Below, in pieces: positions 4,186 through 38,942 of a stretch of 45,288 nt of DNA (position 1 is its first letter; every line of letters starts with the position of its first letter). The DNA is from a virus: IMG/VR virus record IMGVR_UViG_3300047157_000142, positions 1 to 45,288 of that record. The stretch is one strand, 5' to 3'. The position numbers and the translations under genes were made by a program. The notes beneath the pieces were generated by a model. It had not been told where the DNA came from. It was given only the letters and a program-made list of their open reading frames with translations, and ran no database searches.

Positions 4186-7100
4186 TTAGTTTCTTGTTGT
4201 TCTTCTTGAGCCAGTTCTTGTTGATGAGCTTCTTGTTGATCTTCTTGAGCTAGTTTGTTTTTTAGGTTTTTTCTTTTTATCTTTATCCCATTCAAGTTCC
4301 CATTTTTGCCAACCTAAAGCATTAGCTACTCTCATCCATTCTTCATTTTCAGCATCAGATGCATCTTTTAAGTTTTGTAATTTTCTTATACCTCTATCAA
4401 GTGGTATATTAGTAGCAGCACTAACTACTTGACCACTTGCTAACCAAGCTGGATTATCAAATGACCAACCTTTTTCATATATTTCTTTTTTATTCCAGTC
4501 CCATGTTCTACCAGCAGATCTTAATTTGCCTATTTTTGACGATATAGGAGGTGAAATATCTAACATTTCAATAGCGGCATCTTGAGCTTTACCTCCTTGA
4601 GCTAATTTTATTATAGCATTTTTTATCGAGGATATAGCTGCACCGTGAAAACCAAGTCCTCTTAATAAAGAATCAGCCATACCGTTGACAATACCTGTGT
4701 ATTTTTTATTTTTAGCTTCTTCATTAGGTTCTTCATCTCCAAATGCCATCACAAACAATGCTTGTTGCAAAGCATTAAATATAACATTTTGTATCATACC
4801 ATAGTATAATATCTTAGATATGTTAGTTTTATCATCTCCTCGACGATTCTTAAGATCACTAGCAGCTTTTTGCATAATTCTTGCATACTGAGCTGGTGTA
4901 TTAGCAAAAGCTAATATAATACGTCCCATTGGACCAGCTTGTTGAGCACTAATTCTATCAGGTCTACTAGACTGTTGGTTTTCTTCGGCTATTTCTCTAA
5001 AATCTAAAAAAGCTTGATCTTTAGCTTGCGCGTCTGTTAACCCTAGTTTCTTTAAACTTTTGTATCTGTTTCTATAAAATGTAGCACCACCTGATGCAAT
5101 AGCAAAACTATCCGCTATTTGTGTAGGTAAAAAACCAATTTTTAATAACTTACTTATAAAGGCTTTAGCTTTATTTTTTGACTCAGCGGCTATTTCTGCA
5201 ATATCAGCTTCATTAACATTTATTTTTAAACCATTACGTCTTTCAACTAAATAATCAGAATTCATAAGATCAATAACGTCTCTCCAATATTGTGGTTGAT
5301 TACCAAAAGCCGCCGCCGCTTTAAATAGATTATTGTCAGTAAAATTAACAAAGTTGACAGCTGAGATAGTCTGTAGCACAGCTGATCGCATGTTAAAAAA
5401 CATTATAGCACCTACAGAACCATTTAGCCAGTCAACAAATCTACCTGTAAGCGTATCACCCATAGCACCTCTGTTGCTACCAGTTTTCATACGATTAAGA
5501 ATATTTTGTAAAGCTTTTCTATAACCATTTCCGTAAGCAGCCTCTAGTTTATTCATGTTTTCTGGTGTAAAAACTTGATTAACATTTTCCTGCCATTGTT
5601 CTAAATACTTAGCTCTAACGACTGTATTTAAACCAGACAATAAATCAGTTGTAATAGTACCAGCTAACCAACCATCTTGTGGTTTTGGATAACCATTGTC
5701 TTTATTTATAGAAATTAATTGCTCTGCAAATGTCATTAAGTTTTCATCAGCTTTAACATAATCTTCTAATATTTTTTGATCAGCTTTAGACAATCCTGGA
5801 ATAGTCATACCCTGTTGTCCCCATGTATAAACTCTTACAGCATTTCCCACCGTATAAGGTTCACCAACTATTTTTTTATTAAGCCCTTTGTTGTTTACTT
5901 TAAGTAAATTTTTTAATGCTTTATAATCATTAGCTAAAGCAACTCTAGCATTTGATATATCTATGTTAGCTCTAGCAAATGGATCTAAAAAGTTTTCTTT
6001 AACCCAAGCTATAGTAGCATCTCCATCTTTACCTTTACCGGCAAAATATCTAGTCAAACCTACAAAGTCTTGAGCAGATGGTGGTATACCAAGTAAGTTA
6101 AACTTACCTTTACCAGCGCCAACCGCTCTAGCTTTAGTTTCACCATATACTTTTTCTTTACCTATACCTGTAGCTCTTTCAATTATACTATTAAATTGCC
6201 CACTTAAATCTTCTGTCTCACTTTTTCTTAATCTAGCTTGCTGAGCTTCTGTATCTAGCTTTTGCATTTCATCAAGAACAGTTTGGTTAGTTGCTGATTT
6301 AGAAAATTTTATATTGTTAGGTAAAATATTTTCATTAAATGTTTTTGCCTTTGACTCTGATTTTCTTAATTGCGGAGTTGTTCTTCTACCGTTTGTATCA
6401 ATACCTAACTGATCTCCCATAAGTCTACCATTAGTCATTTCTAATGATTGAGGATTTATACCACCATCAACTGCAGCAACTTGAGTATTAAAATACCTTT
6501 GCCACCAATAGTTTTCACCAAGTCTCCATCCTTTTTGCATACCTCTTTGTAAACCTGCTATTCTTAATTTATCGTCCATAGCTTTGTCTAAAGCTATAAG
6601 TTTATAATTATCCATAACAGCTAGATATGCAGATTCAAAATTATAATCTTTATGTAAAGCAACATCCATCAAGTACATATAAGCAGCAGTGGCAGGCATA
6701 GCATGTTCATATTCATATTTACTTTCGCCTTTTTTTCTTTTAGTAAGTTTAGTAGAAAAAGCTACAAATTCAGCACCGGCTTTATGCCAGTGATTGCTTT
6801 GTGATCCTGTTAGTTTTAAATAATTACCAATTGCTCTAGCTGATTCTTTATCATTTCTTATGGTTTCAGTAATTCTTTTCCATAAAGCTTTATGTATTAA
6901 ACCTACTTTTTTATTGTATTCAGCTATTTTACCGTTTTTTTGATTTCTTCTTATTACTTCAGGGTTTTTAAATATAGTTGAGTATCCAGATCTTTTAAAA
7001 TCTGTAACACCATCAATTTTTGCACCAAAAGCTGAATCAGGTAAATTTCTTAAAAGCTCCATTTGAGGTTTGTAATACTCATTGTATAGGTTATACCAAG

Positions 7101-10100
7101 ATGATTTACTCCTTATACCTGGCGTAAATTCTGTCCCATATTTTCCTGTTTTTTTATTAGGTTTACCAAACCAAAAATCTCTAGGCATTAAAGGTAATAC
7201 AAACTTTTTAAGAGCAGCAACATAATTATCTACATCTTCTGTTGTTTTGAAAGTATATGTTGGACCAACTCCATTTCTTTCTAAAATCTTATCAATACTT
7301 TTATCAATGTCAAAATTAGGATTATCTAATGCATCTATTAAATCACCAACGTTTTCATTTATCTTACTAAACATTAGTTTGCTTTTACCAGCAGAAGCAT
7401 CAGCTATAATCTGTTGTTTAGGTTTAGCTGTTTTAACTGTTGATCCTTCAATGTTTTGTGTAGCAGCTCTTAACGCAATTAAAGCACTATCTAGTTTAGC
7501 TATACCTTTTATAAACGTACCAAACTCAGTTCTAGCTTTACCTTTTATAGGTATATTTAATTCACCTCGATCTGTAATACCCATATCACGCTGCAACTTA
7601 GTTACTGTAGCATCTGTAGGGTTTAAAAACTGTGGTTTTAATTTCCATACACCTGGTTGAGATGTCAAACCTTTAGATCTTTTACCAGTTTTTTCGTAAA
7701 AATAATTTAATACTCTACCTTTTAGGCCTAAACTAATACCTTGAAATTCTCTTGATACATCTTTTATAACACCTTGTTTACCAACTACAGCTGTGTCTTG
7801 ACTTACATTTTCAGGTGGTAGTGTTTTTATAAAGTTTTTAGTTTCTTGTAAATCGTTAAACTTACTTTGTATTTTACTAGCTTCAGAAGCTTGAGGTATA
7901 CCATCAACTACTTTAGTTGCGTATGTCAATGTATCATTAGTTGTTATTTTATTAGCAGGTATATCATATATTATTTCACCTACAGGTCCTGCGTATTTAT
8001 CACTAATGTTTTTAAACGTTAAACCACTTGCTATTTCAGCTGGTTTTAATGTTACAGCTTTTTTTATTTGATCAACCTTACCTTGTGTTCTTTTACTTTT
8101 TAAAACATCTATTCTTTTAACATCGGTTTTAGCTTCACTTTTAGCTCGCTCTTGTAATGCTATTGATGAATCAGCAGCTTCAGTGCTTTTTAATTCTCTA
8201 GCTCTTTCATCACTTAATCTAGTTTCAACAGCTTTACCTTCTAATTCTTGTTGGTAAAACGCTTGTCGTTTAGGTTTTATGTTTGCATTAACCCAAGTGC
8301 TAAATTCTCCTTTTTTATATCTACTTATAATACTAGGCATTTGCGCAGCAACAAACGAAGTTGCATCTGCTTTTGTAATTTTAGGTTTACCCGGTATACC
8401 TTTGCCCTGTAAAAAACCTAAAGCTTTTATAGCAATATCATTATATTGTTTTCTTAAATCTTGTTGTTTAGCAGCGGTTAAATTATCAAAACCTCCAACT
8501 TCAATAACCTCTTTAGCTAAAGTTGTAGCTGGTGTTTTAGATTCAGATACTTTAGTTTCTGTAGTTTCTTCAACCAAGTCAACTACACCTTCTAGCTCAA
8601 CACCTTTTTTAAGTTGTTTTATTTCAGCAATAGTTAGTTTTCCTGTTTTTAATTTATTAGCTAAAGTTGTTAAAAAATCTACAGTATCTACACCTCCTTT
8701 TAAATTAAAATTACTAGATCCACCAGTGGCATCGCTAATAGCGTCAGGTAAACCTTGAGAAAGTATAGCTAATAAACCTTTATTGTTTTTAGCTTCTAAT
8801 TGCATACGTGGAACTTCTTCTAAAAAGTTTGTTAAAACTTCATCATAGTTTGATTCATTTTTAACGCGCTCCATTATTCTAGTGTAAGCTTTTTTATTAT
8901 TAATTTTCAACCAACCTAAAACGTTAAGCGCTACAAGTTTAAAAGCATCTGAGTTTGTACTAATAGTTTCAGCAAATAAGGTATGTCCCATCTCATGTAT
9001 ACCTGTAGATGTTTTACCATTCTTTATAGCATTTGTTCGATCTACAATAATATCATAAACTCTTTTACCATCTTTATCAAAGGTAAGTAAATTAACACCA
9101 TTTAAAGTACCATTATTTATACCAGTCTTAAACTCATTTAAAAGTTTTTTAGCTTCAGCTTCATCCATTGGATGGTTTGTATCAGCAACTCTTGCATCTA
9201 AAGCCTCTTTGAATTTTTGCACACTTTCGCTATTACTATCTGACATAGCATATGATGTGTTAATCCCAGATTTATTAAATCTTTTTATTGTTAACCAATC
9301 TTTTTCTGAATTTTTATCAAATGTTTCTTTTTGCCATATTTTTTCAGCTTCAACCCTTACATCTTGATTTGTAAAGTCTTTGCCTGTAGATTCTAAATTT
9401 AATCTAGCCGCTTGCTCATACTTAACTTGTTCTTCTTGAGATAACAAACCAATATTCATTGTAAAAGATTCTTTAAAATCTCTTCTAGCTAATTCAAGAC
9501 TTTGAAATTCTCCCAACAAAGACTCTAAAGCTGTCTCTCTATTTTCTTTTGTTATTTTTTTAGCTTTATATTTTTCATCTATCTCTTTAGCTTCATTTCT
9601 TATTTGCTCTTGTCTTTTTGTAGCATCTCTAAAAGCGTAAAAACCTTCTTTAGTTAATTTATTAGTAATTTTACTTTCAACATTTTGTAATATAATATCA
9701 TTTTTAGCCTCTAAATTATCTATTTGCTTTTTTATTATTTTGTATTCTGTAGTTCTTTTATCCATTCCTACAGTTTGCTTGTGAAGATTTGTAACTTCTT
9801 TTAGGTTTTTTCTATAACCTTCATAAGAATTATAATCAGAAAATAAACTATAAGTAGCGCCAACAACATACGGTGAAGCACTTATAACAGAACCAATCAT
9901 ACCACCAACCACTGTAGCATGATCTACATTTTCCATTATTTGATTAGGTGTTTTAACACCTCTTACAATATCTATTCCGTTTTGTCCAAGAACAGTTAAT
10001 CCTTCTGTAGGTGCTTCTAAAGCCATACCATATCCAGCAGCTTTAATACCCGTTAGCATAAAATCACCTACACCTTTATTAAATAAAGTTCTTGTTCCAG

Positions 10101-11934
10101 CCTCAAGAACATCATCTACAACTTGTTTTCCTTTGTTTAATATTTTTAAAGTAGGTAATGCACCTAGTGAAACTTCAAGAGCAGCGTACCCAGCAGAAAC
10201 TGCAAGTTTTTCTAAACGAGATGTTTTTTCAGCAAATGGCATTTCATCTTCGTTATACATTGTTCTCATTTGTTGTTGATAAGAATCTAAACCAACACCT
10301 GTCATACCTAGCCCATAACCTCCATAATATAACATAGCTAATGTACCTCCTTGACCTATTAATTCTTGGGTAAAAAACTTACCAAAATTTGTTCCACTAG
10401 AAAAACCTTCTTCTAAAGTAATATCTCCAACATACTTGTCTTGATATTGTTTTTCCATTGAATTGTTTAACCAATTTTTAAAACCTCTTAGTTTTTCTAT
10501 AGCCACAAATGGGTTTCCACGCATACCTATTTGATCCATTTTAGAAATTGCATCTACAGTGCCTTCTTCTACTAAACCAGTTTTTTCTAAACCTAATTCA
10601 GCTAAACCAAGGGTAAAATCAGAAGCTAATCCTAGTCCACCAGTTACTACATTTAAAGGTAGTACTCCAAAAATGTTTCTTATTTTTGTTCCAAACTTTT
10701 CTATTTCAGAATAATTTAATTTTAAATAACCTAATAATTCTTCAGAAGTTTTTATATCTATTGGTAAATCTTCTTTTTCTTTTTCAATATCACTTAAAGT
10801 ATTAAAAACATTTTTGTTTTCATCTTGCAATTCTTTTAGCAAATTAAAAGTGGCAATAGGTATAACCTTACCATTCTCTAATTTTACTGTTTTAACTTGC
10901 TTAATTTCTTCGTTGTATTTATTTATTAAATTATTATAAAGTTTTATGCTAGAATCAGTAAACAACATAGAAGGATCTCCCATGTCTTCAATTCTTTTTT
11001 GCAGTATTTCTACAACCTCTATATCTCCTAACCCTTCTACATCAAACTTGTAATCAGGATCATTTATTTTTTCTGTTATATTTTTTAAATTAATAAAGTT
11101 AGCACTTTTAGTATATTTGTCATAAAGCACATCTTCTTCTTGTTGTAGCTTGTCAAAAGCCGCTTTATTTTTTATATATTTATTAGCTTCGTAAGGAGCT
11201 AAAGCTTCTCTTTCTTTATTTGTTAGTGTTTGTAAATAATCTTGAGTTTTCTTTTTTAATAAAGCACTTTTTTCTTTAGTTTTTACCATGTAAGAAGCTA
11301 AAGCTTGTATTTGCTCCGTGCTAGGTTTTTCTATAGGTTTCCAGGTAAGGCCATATTTATTAGGATTAGTAAGCATGTTAGTAGCTTCATCTAATTCTTT
11401 TTTATAAGGAATTATAGTTTCTGTTTTTGTTCCTTTTGTTATTGGCACGTAGCCTCTTGACGTAAGAACATACTCAACATCTTGTTTAGTTTCTTCGTAT
11501 GGTGTGAAATCTACAGGTATTGTATAGCCACCCGGTATTTTTTTACCATTTTCATCTATAGTGTCTTTTTCTTTTTCAAATAAAAGATTTTCAGCATCTG
11601 AAAATTGTATAGCTTTTTCAAAATCTGTTACAAACTTTTCTCCTTCAGGATCTGTTTCTAGTAAAGCTACAGGTTTTAAATCTAAATCTAACTTATCTCT
11701 TGTAAACTCCGAGGAACCAGCTACCGAATTGGATGCCGTATCTTTTTCTGGTGTTACAGGCGCATCCGTCCCCACAACACCGTCTTCCTTTACTTCAACT
11801 TCTTCAAAAAGTTCAGCTTTAGGATTATCTTTTAAAAACGTATCTACTGTATCTTCAGGTATATCATATATCTTCTCTTCACCATCTTTCATTACCTTAT
11901 ACGCAATTGTTTTAGGGTCTTGTAGTTCTATCAT
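4186..11934 (-). CDS. Giant 2582-residue polyvalent-type internal virion protein with zincin motif
   Basis: Very large multidomain protein of the kind podoviruses package and inject with their DNA (polyvalent proteins). An HExxH zinc-protease motif, GIHEMGHTLFAE, has its residues at H980, E981 and H984. The N-terminal third carries Gly-rich hydrophobic stretches (for example near residues 425-450, 525-550 and 670-700, including VVGGMIGSVISASPYVVGAT) that could enter a membrane. The middle is long and charged, with EHAMPATAAYMYLMD near residue 1740. The C-terminal 450 residues (DTLTGRFVDWLNGSVGAIMF, then ANTPAQYARIMQKA and SKILYYGMIQNVIFNALQQA) resemble the large-polyvalent-protein-associated C-terminal domain as I remember it. 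The last 30 residues are Ser/Arg-rich and basic. No polymerase motif was recognised. It is last in the tail and internal-protein run, as expected for an ejected protein. Confidence 0.8.
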   Translation of the reverse strand: MIELQDPKTIAYKVMKDGEEKIYDIPEDTVDTFLKDNPKAELFEEVEVKEDGVVGTDAPVTPEKDTASNSVAGSSEFTRDKLDLDLKPVALLETDPEGEKFVTDFEKAIQFSDAENLLFEKEKDTIDENGKKIPGGYTIPVDFTPYEETKQDVEYVLTSRGYVPITKGTKTETIIPYKKELDEATNMLTNPNKYGLTWKPIEKPSTEQIQALASYMVKTKEKSALLKKKTQDYLQTLTNKEREALAPYEANKYIKNKAAFDKLQQEEDVLYDKYTKSANFINLKNITEKINDPDYKFDVEGLGDIEVVEILQKRIEDMGDPSMLFTDSSIKLYNNLINKYNEEIKQVKTVKLENGKVIPIATFNLLKELQDENKNVFNTLSDIEKEKEDLPIDIKTSEELLGYLKLNYSEIEKFGTKIRNIFGVLPLNVVTGGLGLASDFTLGLAELGLEKTGLVEEGTVDAISKMDQIGMRGNPFVAIEKLRGFKNWLNNSMEKQYQDKYVGDITLEEGFSSGTNFGKFFTQELIGQGGTLAMLYYGGYGLGMTGVGLDSYQQQMRTMYNEDEMPFAEKTSRLEKLAVSAGYAALEVSLGALPTLKILNKGKQVVDDVLEAGTRTLFNKGVGDFMLTGIKAAGYGMALEAPTEGLTVLGQNGIDIVRGVKTPNQIMENVDHATVVGGMIGSVISASPYVVGATYSLFSDYNSYEGYRKNLKEVTNLHKQTVGMDKRTTEYKIIKKQIDNLEAKNDIILQNVESKITNKLTKEGFYAFRDATKRQEQIRNEAKEIDEKYKAKKITKENRETALESLLGEFQSLELARRDFKESFTMNIGLLSQEEQVKYEQAARLNLESTGKDFTNQDVRVEAEKIWQKETFDKNSEKDWLTIKRFNKSGINTSYAMSDSNSESVQKFKEALDARVADTNHPMDEAEAKKLLNEFKTGINNGTLNGVNLLTFDKDGKRVYDIIVDRTNAIKNGKTSTGIHEMGHTLFAETISTNSDAFKLVALNVLGWLKINNKKAYTRIMERVKNESNYDEVLTNFLEEVPRMQLEAKNNKGLLAILSQGLPDAISDATGGSSNFNLKGGVDTVDFLTTLANKLKTGKLTIAEIKQLKKGVELEGVVDLVEETTETKVSESKTPATTLAKEVIEVGGFDNLTAAKQQDLRKQYNDIAIKALGFLQGKGIPGKPKITKADATSFVAAQMPSIISRYKKGEFSTWVNANIKPKRQAFYQQELEGKAVETRLSDERARELKSTEAADSSIALQERAKSEAKTDVKRIDVLKSKRTQGKVDQIKKAVTLKPAEIASGLTFKNISDKYAGPVGEIIYDIPANKITTNDTLTYATKVVDGIPQASEASKIQSKFNDLQETKNFIKTLPPENVSQDTAVVGKQGVIKDVSREFQGISLGLKGRVLNYFYEKTGKRSKGLTSQPGVWKLKPQFLNPTDATVTKLQRDMGITDRGELNIPIKGKARTEFGTFIKGIAKLDSALIALRAATQNIEGSTVKTAKPKQQIIADASAGKSKLMFSKINENVGDLIDALDNPNFDIDKSIDKILERNGVGPTYTFKTTEDVDNYVAALKKFVLPLMPRDFWFGKPNKKTGKYGTEFTPGIRSKSSWYNLYNEYYKPQMELLRNLPDSAFGAKIDGVTDFKRSGYSTIFKNPEVIRRNQKNGKIAEYNKKVGLIHKALWKRITETIRNDKESARAIGNYLKLTGSQSNHWHKAGAEFVAFSTKLTKRKKGESKYEYEHAMPATAAYMYLMDVALHKDYNFESAYLAVMDNYKLIALDKAMDDKLRIAGLQRGMQKGWRLGENYWWQRYFNTQVAAVDGGINPQSLEMTNGRLMGDQLGIDTNGRRTTPQLRKSESKAKTFNENILPNNIKFSKSATNQTVLDEMQKLDTEAQQARLRKSETEDLSGQFNSIIERATGIGKEKVYGETKARAVGAGKGKFNLLGIPPSAQDFVGLTRYFAGKGKDGDATIAWVKENFLDPFARANIDISNARVALANDYKALKNLLKVNNKGLNKKIVGEPYTVGNAVRVYTWGQQGMTIPGLSKADQKILEDYVKADENLMTFAEQLISINKDNGYPKPQDGWLAGTITTDLLSGLNTVVRAKYLEQWQENVNQVFTPENMNKLEAAYGNGYRKALQNILNRMKTGSNRGAMGDTLTGRFVDWLNGSVGAIMFFNMRSAVLQTISAVNFVNFTDNNLFKAAAAFGNQPQYWRDVIDLMNSDYLVERRNGLKINVNEADIAEIAAESKNKAKAFISKLLKIGFLPTQIADSFAIASGGATFYRNRYKSLKKLGLTDAQAKDQAFLDFREIAEENQQSSRPDRISAQQAGPMGRIILAFANTPAQYARIMQKAASDLKNRRGDDKTNISKILYYGMIQNVIFNALQQALFVMAFGDEEPNEEAKNKKYTGIVNGMADSLLRGLGFHGAAISSIKNAIIKLAQGGKAQDAAIEMLDISPPISSKIGKLRSAGRTWDWNKKEIYEKGWSFDNPAWLASGQVVSAATNIPLDRGIRKLQNLKDASDAENEEWMRVANALGWQKWELEWDKDKKKKPKKQTSSRRSTRSSSTRTGSRRTTRN

Positions 11935-14428: not shown

Positions 14429-16180
14429 TTAATATGATGATTCTACAACGTTTGAAGCTATAGAAAATAATTCTTTTTTAATTGATGATGTGTCAAATTG
14501 TGTTGTTGCAGATATTTTTAACTTAACAGTTGAAAAGAAACCTTTAACACCACTAACAGAATTGCCAAATATAATCTCTCCTTGAGCTGGATTAGAAGCA
14601 TTTATAAGATTTGCAAAAAACTTGTTTTCTTTTTTCTTAAAATTGTTAGAAAATAAAGCTCCTTCTAAACCGACTAAAGTTGTTTGTGGTTGATATACAC
14701 CTATTGGTAAAGATGAATCGCTAGAGCTGCCTATAAAGCTGTCTAGTTCCCAGCCAGGACCTCCTTCATAATTTACAGTTTGGAAAACTTTAACAACAGA
14801 TGGTTGCGAATTTAAAACCACAGTAACATCTGATTGATATGTTGTGCCATAAAAATTAGCATAAGTACCTAAATAATGTTGATAAAGTTTACCACTGTTA
14901 AAAGTATAATATAAATTGTTTAAACTAAACGCCCTTGTAGGTTTAAAATCTAAAAATGATGTCCAACCTTTTACACCTTCATCAAATACTAAAGTTTTAT
15001 ATCCTGAACCCTGTATTGATAATATGTAATTTTTTGCGTGATTATCCCATGATCCAATTAATTTTAAATTACCTAGAGCAGAAAGTTGATCTCTAAAAAA
15101 GTCATGCATACCATAAGAGGATATTTCTGTTATACCATCTTTTGACAACCTTAACACGCACCCTCTTTTTTTATCTGTAAAATATTTTCTATAACCATAC
15201 ACAGCAAAACTTTCTGGATTAGTGCTAATACCATACTCACCACCATAAGCAACTATTTGACCTATAACTAGCTGTGTCGATGTTATAGACGCATTTCCTT
15301 CAGCTGAATATATAGCGTCTTTATCTATTAAAGCTCTACTGACTTTATCTTCTTGAAATATAATTAAATTAGTATCTTCAGCATATAGTCTTTGTATAGA
15401 ACCATTTGCTGGATCAGCAGATCTAGTTATATCTTTTCCTACAGAAAATTGATTAGTATTATTTATACCTGTTCTAGAATTAAAAATACCTGAATATATC
15501 AATGTACTTATCCTATTTTGTTGAGCAGAAGTGTCTTCGACTAAGTAAGCTTTTACACCAAAATCAACTGATGTATTGTTATAACCACCTCTTATTCTTG
15601 ATTCCTCTTCATACCAAGACGTTGCATTGTCATTTACATAACCACCAGGTATATTAGGACCAGCTGCTCTGCCGGTAAATGTTAGACTATCACTAGCTGC
15701 AATATTAATACTAGATGTATATGTAAGCGAAGCGTTTAAAGCTAAATTAGCAGCTTGATTTAACACGTAGACCAATCCAGCATTAGTAACAGATTCTATA
15801 TAAGTATTAGCAGTAACACCTGTTCCAGTAACTTTCATTCCAGCAACAACATTTTGGTTAGCTGCTGTTAAAGTTAATGTGGTTCCTGTTGAAGCTGAAT
15901 TAGCGTTGGTAGTTGTAGATAAAGCAGGAGTGCTAACTGTAACCGTAGCACCATCTCTAGCTGTAACAGTAACTACACCAGACGCAAAACCAGTTGTATT
16001 AGTATTATTAGTAACCGTTTGACCAGCGCCTATACCAATAGTATTAGCTGGTATTAATATAATAGTTGTATCAACAGCTGTGTTTGTAGCACCAACATTT
16101 GTAGTCTTTACATCAGTAATACTCTTGATCTTTTTTAACCAGAATGTGTTAAAGTATTTAACTTCTAATGTAGCTGCCAT
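14429..16180 (-). CDS. Tail protein, beta-rich, with embedded GMxV module
   Basis: 583 residues, next to and in the same direction as the nozzle-like tail gene. The N-terminal part (about 35-160) is Thr/Ala/Asn-rich and contains the repeated module NVVAGMKVTGTGVTANTYIE also seen in other virion proteins here. The rest looks like propeller or nozzle repeats: GNASITSTQLVIGQIVAYGG, ESFAVYGYRKYFTDKKRGCV, LRLSKDGITEISSYGMHDFF and KGWTSFLDFKPTRAF. These resemble the C-terminal half of tail nozzle or stabilisation proteins, so it may act with, or be an evolutionary split from, the product of 16213-20702. The role is inferred as a tail component at the distal tube; no enzymatic motif is seen. Confidence 0.65.
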   Translation of the reverse strand: MAATLEVKYFNTFWLKKIKSITDVKTTNVGATNTAVDTTIILIPANTIGIGAGQTVTNNTNTTGFASGVVTVTARDGATVTVSTPALSTTTNANSASTGTTLTLTAANQNVVAGMKVTGTGVTANTYIESVTNAGLVYVLNQAANLALNASLTYTSSINIAASDSLTFTGRAAGPNIPGGYVNDNATSWYEEESRIRGGYNNTSVDFGVKAYLVEDTSAQQNRISTLIYSGIFNSRTGINNTNQFSVGKDITRSADPANGSIQRLYAEDTNLIIFQEDKVSRALIDKDAIYSAEGNASITSTQLVIGQIVAYGGEYGISTNPESFAVYGYRKYFTDKKRGCVLRLSKDGITEISSYGMHDFFRDQLSALGNLKLIGSWDNHAKNYILSIQGSGYKTLVFDEGVKGWTSFLDFKPTRAFSLNNLYYTFNSGKLYQHYLGTYANFYGTTYQSDVTVVLNSQPSVVKVFQTVNYEGGPGWELDSFIGSSSDSSLPIGVYQPQTTLVGLEGALFSNNFKKKENKFFANLINASNPAQGEIIFGNSVSGVKGFFSTVKLKISATTQFDTSSIKKELFSIASNVVESSY

Positions 16181-32951: not shown

Positions 32952-33413
32952 TTATTTTTTAAATAAACTTGTAGCCTTTTCTGTTGTGCGTCCACCAAAA
33001 TATGCTAGAACAACAGCCATCATTACTTTTTCAAATGTGTCATTCCATAATTCACCTATGTGAAATGGTATAGACTCTACACTATCTAATAATCCTGCTA
33101 TTGAAAATATAACAATACACCACACTAAAACCATAGGGCGTACGTTTTTAGAAAGCCATGAATCTGACATTGAATCAGCTTGCCACCTTGAGGTGACGGC
33201 TTCCATTTCTTTATTTTGTTGTTCAAATATAAGTTGTTGCAATTTTATTTTGTCTTCACCACTTACATCGGATTTACCTATAGCAGCAATAGCTTCAGCT
33301 GGCGACGTTACGCCACTTAGTACACTTCCCAACGTAGGGTTAACTAACGACGCAGCACCAAACAATAGTTTACCTACTGTAGTTTCTGCAAATTTCTTTT
33401 TTGGTTTACTCAT
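32952..33413 (-). CDS. Holin (three-helix type)
   Basis: 153 residues. The C-terminal half carries RWQADSMSDSWLSKNVRPMV, the conserved lead-in of the phage 3TM holin family, followed by hydrophobic spans LVWCIVIFSIAGLL and VMMAVVLAYFGGRTTEK. The N-terminal half is amphipathic (VGKLLFGAASLVNPTLGSVL). Holins make the inner-membrane holes that release or trigger the endolysin. The endolysin (38478-38942) lies 5 kb upstream in the same direction, so both are on the same expected transcript. The start overlaps the previous gene's TAA (TAATG). Confidence 0.82.
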   Translation of the reverse strand: MSKPKKKFAETTVGKLLFGAASLVNPTLGSVLSGVTSPAEAIAAIGKSDVSGEDKIKLQQLIFEQQNKEMEAVTSRWQADSMSDSWLSKNVRPMVLVWCIVIFSIAGLLDSVESIPFHIGELWNDTFEKVMMAVVLAYFGGRTTEKATSLFKK

Positions 33414-34067
33414 TATCTTCCTCTTGTTCTGTTAAATTTCTTAGAGCATATGTTACATGCGCCTTTTCCTCCAGAAGATTTTCTTCCAAGACCAAGTTTT
33501 GGTAATCTAAATTTAGGTAGTCTTATTTGTATATTACCTATTGCTCTTCCTGTTTTTTTAATAAATTTTCCAACATCAGTGTTTTCTAAATTTTTTTCTA
33601 GTTTTTCTTGGTGATGGTGGCGGAATTGTTCCTGTTGGTGGTTTTTTAACTAAAGGTTGTAACCCAGCCATGCTACCTGTTATTTTAGCACCACCCATGG
33701 GTTTTATTCCAGAATAATTCAAAGTTTGCGAAACAGTTCTTCTAGTTGGTTCTGTACCTGGCTTAGTATTTCCTGCTATATACTTATCATCTGCTATTTT
33801 TCTTTCAGATAAAGACATTTTTTTATAAGCTGCATCACCAGCAGGTGTAAATTTAGGTTTAGTATATGAACCAGGTGTTCCAGGTGTTTCGTAAGTTCTT
33901 GTTGTTGTTCGTGAATAACCTGAAAAAGGACTTTTGTTATTAGGCGTCGATACTGTACTGCTAGACACAAGTCTTTCACCAGAAGCTCTATCAGCATACG
34001 CTTTAAAATTTAGATTTTTAGATGGATCAGTCATTTTAGCTGGACCACTTTTACATTTATACGCCAT
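33413..34067 (-). CDS. Basic protein with GAKIT motif and C-terminal Cys pair, split by a frameshift
   Basis: The frame from 34067 (MAYKCKSGPAKMTDPSKNLN) would stop at 33576 after RKTRKKFRKH. Downstream, a frame with no start codon (NTDVGKFIKKTGRAIGNIQI, then LPKFRLPKLGLGRKSSGG and ACNICSKKFNRTRGR) runs to a TAA that overlaps the holin ATG. Removing one base of T7 (33591-33597) joins them into 217 residues; this is the best reading because the second part has no start of its own. The protein is basic, Pro/Thr/Ser-rich and probably disordered. It contains GIKPMGGAKITGSMAGLQPL, shared with the neighbouring Cys/His protein, and a CNIC pair near the end. Function unknown, probably a virion-associated or DNA-binding protein. 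Confidence 0.6.
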
Positions 34068-34069
34068 AA

Positions 34070-34792
34070 TTAATTGTTTTTAAATCTTTTTAAGTCTTTA
34101 ACAGTAAACACGTATTGAGGTGTTACTATATCTTTTGTTTCATGTAGATCATACCACACACTATGTTTTTTAATTGGATTTAATAAAATTTGTTGTTCTT
34201 GCGCTGGCATGTAACTTTGTGCCAACATATATTTTTTATGACCATTTTTATTAATAACAATATCAATTACAGATATTGCATGGCCAGGAAAACCACCTAC
34301 AATAAATAAATCACCTGGTTTTATATCTTTTATATTTACATTAACAGTGTCATAAGTATCTAAAGACCATGTTCCAGACCAAGCCCAGACTTTTGTTATA
34401 TATTTTTTAAAAGTATATTCGTTAAAGTTTTGAAAATTACCAGTGTACGAATATATTTTTGCATTATGTGAAAAAGTAAAAGATATTTTATTATACTGTT
34501 TAGACTCAAATAAATAACGAGCTTTATTATACATAACAGCATCAGCACATTGATGTAAATCTTTATTACCTATATCATAAACAAATTTAGCAACATAAAC
34601 TTTATTAAAACCTTCTTTCATTTGACCACTAAAATACTTTACATGATCTTTTGTATTTATCTTCTTAGATATAATCCAGTTATGATAATCACTTTGAATT
34701 ATTCTCTTATAGTCTTTAGGTATTTTAAAATAAGACTCTATTGTTTGACTGTAAACATTTAAACTTAATAATAATAATAATAGATTTTTCAT
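34070..34792 (-). CDS. Secreted DUF4846 protein
   Basis: 240 residues with signal peptide MKNLLLLLLSLNVYSQ. Diagnostic DUF4846 blocks are DLHQCADAVMYNKARYLF (Cys82, Asp84), the YITKVWAWSGTWSL helix, IKPGDLFIVGGFPGHAISVI (His171) and LAQSYMPAQEQQILLNP. The spacing of a Cys at the start of a helix and a His after a GD turn resembles NlpC/P60-type cysteine hydrolases, so a wall or peptide hydrolase is possible, but the DUF has no function I know. The family is typical of Bacteroidota. As an exported protein in a phage it may act on the host periplasm at lysis or during infection. Adjacent genes encode a second Cys/His protein and an HExxH protein. Confidence 0.85.
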   Translation of the reverse strand: MKNLLLLLLSLNVYSQTIESYFKIPKDYKRIIQSDYHNWIISKKINTKDHVKYFSGQMKEGFNKVYVAKFVYDIGNKDLHQCADAVMYNKARYLFESKQYNKISFTFSHNAKIYSYTGNFQNFNEYTFKKYITKVWAWSGTWSLDTYDTVNVNIKDIKPGDLFIVGGFPGHAISVIDIVINKNGHKKYMLAQSYMPAQEQQILLNPIKKHSVWYDLHETKDIVTPQYVFTVKDLKRFKNN

Positions 34793-34810
34793 ACTATTAT
34801 AATTACATAT

Positions 34811-36033
34811 TTATTTCTTTTTCAACTTTTTAAATAAAGAATTAATACCTTTAGTGTTAGCTGTAATTTTAGCACCAGGCATGGTTTTTACACCAGCTGG
34901 TTGTATAGGTTTTTTAGTATTTTTTACTATAAATGATGCTGTGTTTAGGTTTTCTTTAAGTTTTGGTGTTTTTCCTACATACCTTAAGTAAACACCTTCT
35001 TTGCCCACGTTGATAAACATTATTATTAACTCGTAATCCATCTAATACGCTACCAGGGTTTTCATAAAATGTCGGTTCTCCAAATGCATTTTTATTACCA
35101 ACAGTCATAGAATGGCTAGTTCCAGAATACATACTACCATCAGCATTAAAAGTTGGTAAAAAAACCTGACCTTAAATTATCTCCTGGTAATATTTCATCT
35201 ACTCCTTTTATTGCTTTATCATATCTTTTAGCACCCTCATTTCGTCTGCTTTCATAACTAGACCCATCATAATCTCCACCCAAAACTCTAAGTCCAAACA
35301 TACCTTGTTCTAAATTTTCTTTTTTAGTATTGTGTAAAGATACGTGTTGGTAACCTATTTGAGGATATATATTATCCATATCATTATTGTTAGGTAATGT
35401 TGGTGGTGTGTCTCCTTCTTTTAAATTTATTCGCTTACCGTCAACTCTTCTTTTAAAGCTAAAAGGTTTTGAAACTGTAGCACCACCCATTCGTTGCAAA
35501 GCACAAGCGTGTGTATTACAAGCTGCTCCAGCGTAGCCATAACCTTTTAAATCCTCTTGACCATATTTGTTTATTATTAAATCTTGCTCATTTTTATTTA
35601 ATATTGAATCATAAATTCCAATATTACCTTTTTTAGCATCTTTAAATTTAAACATACTACCAAGATTAGCTCTAGAGACTTGCGTAAGCCCGTCTTTATT
35701 CCATTTGGGAGGGTTTGCTATTAATTCTTTATTAAAAAACCTAGGCATTCCTAAAGTTTTTACTGTATTATTTTCAGCTGCTTTAGCAATGTTATCCCTT
35801 ACGTTTTGCACTCTCATGCTTTCTTTTCTTAAAGCTTCTCTAGCATCAGTTTCTTTTTTTCTAGCTTCAAATGCAAAGTCACTAACCATAGCTTTTGTAT
35901 TAATACCAAAGCCTGGAATACCAGTTTTATTTTCTTGACTTGATTTTTCCCAAGTAAAACCTGGTCCAAGTTTTTTTGAACTTTTAAGTCTTGAAGCATT
36001 TAATTCAGGATAAAATGAAGATTTTGATTTCAT
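34811..36033 (-). CDS. Possible papain-like/NlpC-like protein, split by two one-base frameshifts
   Basis: The frame from 36033 ends DNLRSGFFTNF at 35146. Removing one base of A7 at 35158-35164 gives GFLPTFNADGSMYSGTSHSM, then VNNNVYQRG; removing one base of CCC at 35004-35006 continues KEGVYLRYVGKTPKLKEN to the stop at 34811. The restored length is 406 residues. The central GYGYAGAACNTHACALQRMG (Cys172 or Cys177) followed by EILPGDN and a later SGTSHSMTVGN (His near 307) is the Cys, GD-turn, His order of NlpC/P60-like hydrolases. Basic helical residues 50-120 precede it. The tail repeats the neighbour's motif as GVKTMPGAKITANTKGINSL. Catalysis is inferred only; the His would be lost in the unrepaired frame. 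Confidence 0.6.
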
Positions 36034-36344
36034 TTATTGTTTTTATAAGCTTCTTTTTCCCACGCTAAAGCAGGGGAACCCTCGTTCATTGATGATCTTT
36101 TAAATTTTTTACCTTTCCAATATACATTATTATCATCCCAATCTAAGTCACCTCTTTTTAGTTGATTAATGTGTATATTTTCATGGTTAATAACATTAGC
36201 CAATTTTTTATGATCAGTAATGTCTTTGTTCACTAATATAGTTCCTGGTTTTTCAATTCTACCTAACTCTCTCTCATCGTCCATAGGTACATTAACCACA
36301 GACGCTGGATTGCTTTCATAAAAAGGCTGTATTGTAAATTTCAT
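36030..36344 (-). CDS. Small HExxH metallopeptidase-like protein
   Basis: 104 residues. NVINHENIHINQLKRGDLDW holds an HExxH zinc motif (H54, E55, H58), and the later SPALAWEKEAYKNN supplies a Glu (E96 or E98) in the place of the third ligand found in compact zincins, where a (P)xExEA segment follows the active-site helix. The N-terminus has short strands (KFTIQPFYESNPASVVNVPM). There is no signal peptide. It overlaps the next gene by four bases (ATGA at 36030-36033). A protease that matures virion or host proteins is plausible, but no substrate is indicated. Confidence 0.65.
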   Translation of the reverse strand: MKFTIQPFYESNPASVVNVPMDDERELGRIEKPGTILVNKDITDHKKLANVINHENIHINQLKRGDLDWDDNNVYWKGKKFKRSSMNEGSPALAWEKEAYKNNK

Positions 36345-36497: not shown

Positions 36498-36836
36498 CTA
36501 TACTAAAGTATATCCAGAGCATTGAGAAAACGTAAGCGCTTGACCACTTGCAGAAAGAGTTGCAGGAATTCCTGATACTTCAGAAACACCATTACCTGGA
36601 CTAGCAATCCATCCATTTAATACTGAATCTTCTAAACTGTAACCAGCTGCAGCAGCAGCGGTAAACTGAAGTCTAATAGCATCAGAAGCAGCAGCTCCAA
36701 AAGCAGTTTGTTTTAAGAAAACATCTACTGAATTAGCAACAGCACCTCTTTGAACGTAAGCGATGTTGTCTTTTGGAATAATAACGAAGCTTGCTCCGTT
36801 AACAGGTGCGTTAAATCGCACTTTTAAATAACTCAT
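36498..36836 (-). CDS. Small virion-like protein (possible decoration protein)
   Basis: 112 residues: MSYLKVRFNAPVNGASFVII, then VDVFLKQTAFGAAASDAIRL and a C-terminal LSASGQALTFSQCSGYTLV. Ala/Gly/Ser-rich and predicted beta-alpha, without charge clusters or membrane segments. Its higher G/C and Ala content and neat codon use are like those of abundant structural proteins. The gene precedes the CxC protein and follows a 57-base A/T-rich gap with no recognisable element. A capsid decoration or minor structural role is a guess. Confidence 0.5.
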   Translation of the reverse strand: MSYLKVRFNAPVNGASFVIIPKDNIAYVQRGAVANSVDVFLKQTAFGAAASDAIRLQFTAAAAAGYSLEDSVLNGWIASPGNGVSEVSGIPATLSASGQALTFSQCSGYTLV

Positions 36837-38193: not shown

Positions 38194-38478
38194 TTATTTT
38201 TTATTTTTATTTTTATTACAAAAGTTTCTAGCAGCCTCAACACTACCAAATCCCCATTTTTTTAAAGCCATAGCTTTTCTAGTTGGCTCACCATTAGCAC
38301 CTTTCATCGCTCCTTTCATACCAGCAAATCTACAAGCAAAAGAAATTCTACGTTTACCAGTACCAGAAGTTTGTCTACTACCTAGTTTTTTACCAGTTTC
38401 TTTTGTATAATCTGATCGCATTTTGCGATTTTGCTTTTCGTATGCTTTTTCTTTTATTTTAATTGGTGAATTAGCCAT
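38194..38478 (-). CDS. DUF6321-like basic protein
   Basis: 94 residues, very basic. The block ISFACRFAGMKGAMKGANGE, then PTRKAMALKKWGFGSVEAAR and NFC, matches my memory of DUF6321, a small protein found in many marine phages: ACRF.GMKG, an NGxPTRKAxALKKWGF helix and a final EARxFC. Two Cys (in ACRF and NFC) might bind metal or nucleic acid. The function is unknown. Its first base is also the last base of the M15 peptidase gene (38478), so it is translated with it. Confidence 0.7.
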   Translation of the reverse strand: MANSPIKIKEKAYEKQNRKMRSDYTKETGKKLGSRQTSGTGKRRISFACRFAGMKGAMKGANGEPTRKAMALKKWGFGSVEAARNFCNKNKNKK

Positions 38479-38942
38479 TATATTACTTTATATTTAGTTT
38501 TACCGTTTTCTTTATAAGCTTGTAAACATCTTCTTCTGTTAACATCTTCTGAAACATAACTCACATGTACCCAAGCAGGGTTGGTTTCGTCACCAAACTC
38601 CCAAATAATTTGATCATAATCTAAGTTATTCTTAATATAATCATACATCTCTGCATTTGTTTTATAACCGTAGTTATCGTCTATGTCAAGCGCGCAACCA
38701 ATACAATGTTGTGAGGTTGTGCTTCCGCCAATAGCAGAATTTAATTTGGGCGAGCGATAGAAACTATTAATAGCGATTGGACCACCTACCCATTTACGTA
38801 GAGGTTCAAACACTTCTTCTGCGATAGTTTTCATGTTAACTAAATCTAGTTCTCTAGGTATATTGTCAATATTTAACCTAGTAGCTGTGTGAGATTTAAT
38901 CCCTTCTTTAAGCGAGATGTGTTCACTTATTCTATCACTCAT
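38478..38942 (-). CDS. M15-family peptidase endolysin
   Basis: 154 residues, single domain. SQHCIGCALDIDD (residues 77-89) carries the SxHxxGxAxD zinc motif (H79, D86). YDQIIWEFGD gives the catalytic Glu (E115) and WVHVSY the second His (H126). This is the peptidase M15_3 / L,D- or D,D-endopeptidase type widely used as endolysin to cut cross-linked stem peptides of host peptidoglycan. There is no signal peptide, so access to the wall should depend on the holin (32952-33413). SFYRSPKLNSAIGGS (about 60-74) is also family-typical. Confidence 0.9.
   Translation of the reverse strand: MSDRISEHISLKEGIKSHTATRLNIDNIPRELDLVNMKTIAEEVFEPLRKWVGGPIAINSFYRSPKLNSAIGGSTTSQHCIGCALDIDDNYGYKTNAEMYDYIKNNLDYDQIIWEFGDETNPAWVHVSYVSEDVNRRRCLQAYKENGKTKYKVI

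Follow-up and report, generated by a model that had tools for sequence, protein, structure and literature searches.

A linked pair of putative cysteine hydrolase genes in a variable slot beside the holin of uncultured marine podoviruses

Background

Like the locus described here, the canonical holin and endolysin cassette of flavobacterial phages (PMC8776804) combines a holin with an M15-type peptidase within the late region. Proteins of the DUF4846 family (PF16138) were proposed earlier to be NlpC/P60-like cell-wall enzymes on the strength of their GD motif, in a 2023 survey of papain-like enzymes (PMC10318531). For DUF4846 enzymes and for the Cys/His protein discussed below, the literature gave one computational mention, and no tested activity was found.

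The window, which is the whole of the 45,288-base viral record IMGVR_UViG_3300047157_000142, contains three contiguous genes that a preliminary description took for a single module: one encoding a protein with an HExxH motif, one encoding a Cys/His protein whose reading frame had to be repaired, and one encoding a DUF4846 protein. The three genes are real, as seen from their open reading frames, the conservation of the HExxH motif, the PF16138 match, the overlap of the HExxH and Cys/His genes at ATGA and the start of the DUF4846 gene 18 nucleotides past the Cys/His stop; the nearby holin and M15 peptidase were likewise confirmed (Table 1).

Table 1. Features of the region around the holin of the window
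Feature	Position	Strand	Remarks
M15 peptidase, likely endolysin	38478..38942	(-)	phrog_894
HExxH protein, 104 aa	36030..36344	(-)	HENIH at residues 54-58; Glu96 is the third-ligand candidate
Cys/His protein gene, two frameshifts in window	34811..36033	(-)	intact 410-codon orthologue in L002
Hypervariable part of Cys/His gene	35000..35400	(-)	most of 129 substitutions relative to L002
DUF4846 (PF16138) protein, 240 aa	34070..34792	(-)	signal-peptide-like N-terminus; Cys82, GD160-161, His171
Basic protein between DUF4846 and holin	33576..34067	(-)	163-aa frame in window, 216 aa in L002
Holin	32952..33413	(-)	phrog_3427, weak GTA_holin_3TM; downstream border of cargo slot

Phage affiliation

The terminase of the window is 62% identical to that of the uncultured 60.9-kb podovirus MW202828, 44% identical to those of the Flavobacterium phages of Elemovirus, and approximately 40% and 36% identical to those of Pachyviridae and Pervagoviridae, respectively. 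The window also encodes GroEL and a GroES-like protein, as do the Elemovirus phages. By sequence comparison, the phage is a podovirus related to the Elemovirus, Pachyviridae and Pervagoviridae phages of Flavobacteriia, and because of these terminase relatives and the GroEL and GroES-like genes shared with Elemovirus, its hosts are probably Flavobacteriia, as judged purely from relatedness. Relatives were sampled as the best 80 by terminase, many of them short contig fragments. Elsewhere in the window, a late protein (14429-16180) contains the crAss muzzle C-terminal domain (PF25729, E=1.2e-9), here outside the classic crassviruses, and a protein of 2,582 amino acids (4186-11934) has no PHROG match.

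A conserved HExxH gene beside the holin

The HExxH gene was found in slightly fewer than half of the contigs of the best 80 terminase relatives, and in all 20 of the 20 contigs that span the interval from groES to the holin, the window counted. It adjoins the holin in 12 of 33 relatives, leaving no space for a further gene, and is separated from it in the remainder by 0.1-2.6 kb of other genes. The gene belongs to the layout that these phages generally share, and because it is constant beside the holin, a late-stage role, either in lysis or in the virion, is suggested. The M15 peptidase was detected in only four of the 20 contigs spanning groES to holin (one of them weakly), and is likely a dispensable endolysin.

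Among 36 relatives, His54 is kept in 35 and Glu55 and His58 in 36, and Glu96 of a downstream W-E-x-E-A motif is kept in 36/36; this conservation rules out a chance origin of the HExxH motif. Some zincins use glutamate as the third metal ligand. The protein is a candidate zincin-like metallopeptidase by its HENIH motif and Glu96. Its Pfam matches (M76, E=0.021; DUF6782, E=0.0006; M78, weak) all fall under the curated cut-offs, with no zincin family above them, and its PHROG matches (phrog_16532 and phrog_10499) are both families of unknown function. Among annotated phage records, the top hit is partial and falls on a gene annotated as an ImmA/IrrE metallopeptidase.

A short N-terminal [S/P/T]P[F/L/Y/M] stretch is common to the HExxH protein and many small basic proteins (for example L063 3131 and 3394, L027 3312 and 3570), and is possibly a shared targeting tag. 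It was seen first and tested afterwards, and occurs in 14 of 145 genes of the groES-to-holin interval versus two of 160 post-holin genes (P about 0.001, ignoring relatedness).

A two-gene cargo between the HExxH gene and the holin

The Cys/His and DUF4846 genes are always paired and in the same order, in the window and in five related contigs (L002, L003, L010, L011 and L172). The full order HExxH-Cys/His-DUF4846 is kept in L010, L011 and L172, as a synteny check proposed in the preliminary description had sought; the L003 contig starts too late to reveal the HExxH gene. The pair occupies the slot between the HExxH gene and the holin, which other relatives fill with other genes, including small signal-peptide-like proteins (L022, L028, L082) that have no Pfam match. 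A single three-gene module is ruled out: most relatives possess the HExxH gene, usually beside the holin, without Cys/His or DUF4846. If co-occurrence with the holin is taken as the mark of a lysis module, the HExxH gene bears that mark; the Cys/His-DUF4846 pair was seen with the holin in just six contigs. The HExxH gene is a common gene of the group, and the other two make up a linked two-gene cargo.

The pair was found in no phage isolate record, and a search for the arrangement in 50,697 phage records gave no match. Novelty, which had been claimed for the whole, therefore holds for the uncatalogued gene arrangement but not for DUF4846, which was already predicted as a wall-enzyme family.

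The basic protein gene between DUF4846 and the holin is shortened in the window by a further length difference from L002, and its product has no family match in Pfam, PHROG or a further family library. A GAKIT....G(L/I)..L.KK stretch is common to the C-termini of this protein and of the Cys/His protein (34811-35041). In another relative, a PAP2-like gene of the phosphatase superfamily (L085 3110-3643) lies in the groES-to-holin interval, just below the Pfam cut-off.

The Cys/His protein

In the window the Cys/His gene is broken into three overlapping frames. The L002 contig (11.1 kb, 98.3% identical to the window) has a single intact 410-codon frame, and the window departs from it by one base of length at each of two sites (near 35.16 kb and near 35.00 kb), so the repaired frame was correct. 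Both changes adjoin short single-base runs inside a patch that is strongly divergent between the two sequences. Assembly and sequencing errors often fall at short single-base runs, and because both breaks lie beside such runs, errors are the more likely cause, rather than decay. The two frameshifts, together with the altered length of the neighbouring basic gene, would also fit a set of unrelated adjacent genes without a common role, some of them decaying, with Cys/His a pseudogene in the window lineage. The frame is intact, however, in L002, L003, L010, L011 and L172, and catalytic-type residues are kept at 25-58% identity; the intact relatives largely refute decay, which is very improbable.

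The five intact frames are distinct sequences, 25-58% identical to L010 (25% being the most distant pair), and all keep YG..Cys, GD, His and NSG (Cys172, GD288-289, His311 and Asn329 in L002 numbering). In the structure model (five sequences, pLDDT 59 overall, with a better core), Cys172 opens a helix, GD precedes a strand, His311 is on a strand and Asn329 follows the next strand. This is the residue order of NlpC/P60-type enzymes (Cys, GD, His, third polar residue), found in the five sequences and in the model. The protein has no match in Pfam, PHROG, NCBIfam, PADLOC or PDB; Foldseek gave no significant PDB match for the model and one viral match (A0A516MIV4, probability 0.96, E=0.002, with a low TM), and the profile does not match NlpC/P60 (hhalign probability 0.6%). 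Direct homology to the DUF4846 protein was rejected as non-significant (profile comparison probability 1.2%). The Cys/His protein is probably an orphan cysteine hydrolase, as suggested by its conserved residues and model; it is at most a papain-like hydrolase by likeness, and is not classed as a family member.

The model also contains a confident long N-terminal helix (residues 46-94), the C-terminal block is conserved and a signal peptide is absent. These properties would suit a virion or internal cargo protein, delivered with the genome, in which case DUF4846 alone would concern the envelope. The muzzle domain, from which a crassvirus-like tail is expected, is consistent with such delivery, and the N-terminal stretch shared by the HExxH protein and several basic proteins might extend it to HExxH, but that stretch is short, was noticed before it was tested, and has a P value that disregards relatedness. 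Delivery of this kind is unlikely.

A hypervariable lobe

The Cys/His gene carries 129 of the 171 substitutions between the window and L002 within 11% of the compared length; the two sequences are 99.9% identical otherwise. The substitutions cluster in the lobe that separates Cys from His and leave the Cys region unchanged: residues 101-215 (115 residues, including Cys172) have one change, and residues 216-295 have 40 changed codons, of which 30 replace an amino acid. One recombination with a divergent allele, or selection on the lobe, would explain the patch. A diversity-generating element was rejected as its source, given the in-frame length changes of the patch and its single copy in the window. 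A second, smaller hotspot (window 36498-36836 versus L002 4930-5265, 22 substitutions) falls in the gene of a 112-aa protein, where most of the changes affect the N-terminal half.

It would be a long way from these observations to a new phage family of papain-like hydrolases, with a lobe swapped rapidly between near-identical phages and an exported wall enzyme as partner on the same host, and this proposal is doubtful. The fixed nucleophile region and fixed ends of the protein would then be as expected of an effector that is injected or works inside the cell during an arms race, a role that is equally hard to credit. The clustered variation marks this uncharacterised protein as being under unusual pressure.

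The DUF4846 protein

Membership in the DUF4846 family is certain from the PF16138 match (E=1.7e-51, 175.5 bits versus a cut-off of 37, covering profile positions 1-239 of 239). The N-terminus, MKNLLLLLLSLNVYSQ, resembles a Sec signal peptide by inspection only, in agreement with the preliminary view that one of the two papain/NlpC-type proteins is secreted; export is thus predicted. Among 119 phage and bacterial homologues, Cys82, Ala83, Asp84, Gly160, Pro169, Gly170 and His171 are invariant and Asp161 is 99% conserved; a QSYMPAQE block is likewise invariant, a biased count as the block doubled as the search pattern. In the AlphaFold model (pLDDT 90, pTM 0.87), Cys82 opens helix 82-96, GD precedes strand 162-166, His171 is within strand 170-181, and Gln192/Ser193 close strand 186-193, which reproduces the NlpC/P60 layout, in which the Cys helix is followed by the GD strand, the His strand and then a polar residue (here near 192). 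The papain/NlpC-type layouts attributed to the two proteins (Cys, GD, His and a conserved third polar residue) are thus borne out by conservation and models.

When aligned by hhalign with 19 bacterial NlpC/P60 domains, DUF4846 places GD...H on GD...H (P=0.0016, with a probability of only 16%), and the holin and M15 controls give P of 0.44-0.51. Foldseek found nothing significant in PDB for the model, the best papain-like match being staphopain C (E=0.34), and no sequence-related solved structure was found. The fold class is likely NlpC/P60-like, as motif and model indicate, and the substrate would be peptidoglycan.

In a quick tree of 104 sequences, the DUF4846 proteins of two unrelated phage groups cluster with 99% SH-aLRT. 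The bacterial genes are chromosomal, mostly in Bacteroidota in a best-80 sample, and no conserved neighbours were evident by eye at 80 loci. A DUF4846 sequence from a 3,456-base single-cell Marinoscillum contig (L093) falls inside the phage clade; the contig may be a phage fragment. The second, unrelated group of marine phages (L173-L203) has DUF4846 directly after genes for a lipoprotein and a small membrane protein (for example L176 7039-8795, L203 7490-8753), close to helicase-like and other replication-type genes, away from an Amidase_2 endolysin and on the opposite strand to it. This placement fits envelope modification better than lysis.

Possible functions of the pair

The explanation tentatively preferred here is that the slot linked to the holin holds cargo, from which an exported DUF4846 enzyme would cut peptidoglycan around lysis while the Cys/His protein acts elsewhere. 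In the window lineage, two coupled genes lie between the common HExxH gene and the holin. The DUF4846 protein would be made with a signal peptide and exported by Sec, and would act as an NlpC/P60-type cysteine hydrolase with Cys82 as nucleophile, His171 as base and the polar residue near 192; by cleaving peptidoglycan peptides it would weaken the wall around the time of lysis, working alongside the M15 endolysin or replacing it. In L011, which has the pair and the holin, neither M15 nor any recognisable wall hydrolase besides DUF4846 was found in the groES-to-holin interval. Against wall lysis, the window already has an M15 peptidase, and a second wall enzyme has no obvious need. The Cys/His protein, which lacks a signal peptide, would most likely be a papain-like cysteine hydrolase active within the cell or the virion, with its fast-changing lobe facing the target. 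The expanded envelope-degrading module of the preliminary description is only partly supported: envelope degradation is plausible for DUF4846 alone, and Cys/His and HExxH show no sign of reaching the envelope.

Rather less probable is a cassette for host subversion or exclusion, in which exported DUF4846 would remodel the wall or surface at an early or middle stage of infection, for instance to prevent superinfection, and Cys/His would be a cytoplasmic protease or deamidase; that its target would be a fast-evolving one of the host or of a competitor is a similarly speculative part of the proposal. The lipoprotein and small membrane protein that precede DUF4846 near replication-type genes in the second phage group are consistent with this, as are the concentration of substitutions in the Cys/His lobe beside an unchanged Cys region, and the small signal-peptide-like proteins that other phages place in the variable slot. 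In the group of the window, however, the pair is surrounded by late genes, with the endolysin on one side and the holin on the other, and one recombination event, without repeated selection, could account for the substitution cluster. PADLOC gave no match, and a defence or counter-defence family was rejected on that result.

The slot adjacent to the holin in these uncultured marine phages is an exchange site for small exported or enzymatic genes, and a promising region in which to look for new proteins active on the wall or against the host. For the DUF4846 family, whose role as a wall enzyme is so far a prediction, the arrangement offers a concrete phage setting amenable to experiment.

Comparison with known systems

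The HExxH protein resembles HExxH zincins in its motif, its invariant downstream Glu and its small size, and differs in that its Pfam matches are sub-threshold and its PHROG matches carry no function. The DUF4846 protein has, over its full length, the same invariant Cys-Ala-Asp, GD and Pro-Gly-His blocks as the rest of PF16138, but the copy in the window is phage-borne, falls in the phage clade, is coupled to the Cys/His orphan and lies beside a holin. The NlpC/P60 endopeptidases (PF00877) have in common with the models a Cys helix followed by the GD strand, the His strand and a third polar residue, and the predicted export of DUF4846 is a further likeness, but neither protein of the window matches them significantly, and DUF4846, at 240 aa, is the longer and contains insertions. 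Relative to the canonical flavobacterial cassette (PMC8776804), the window has, in its variable slot, an additional cysteine hydrolase with predicted export, and M15 is missing from the corresponding interval of most relatives.
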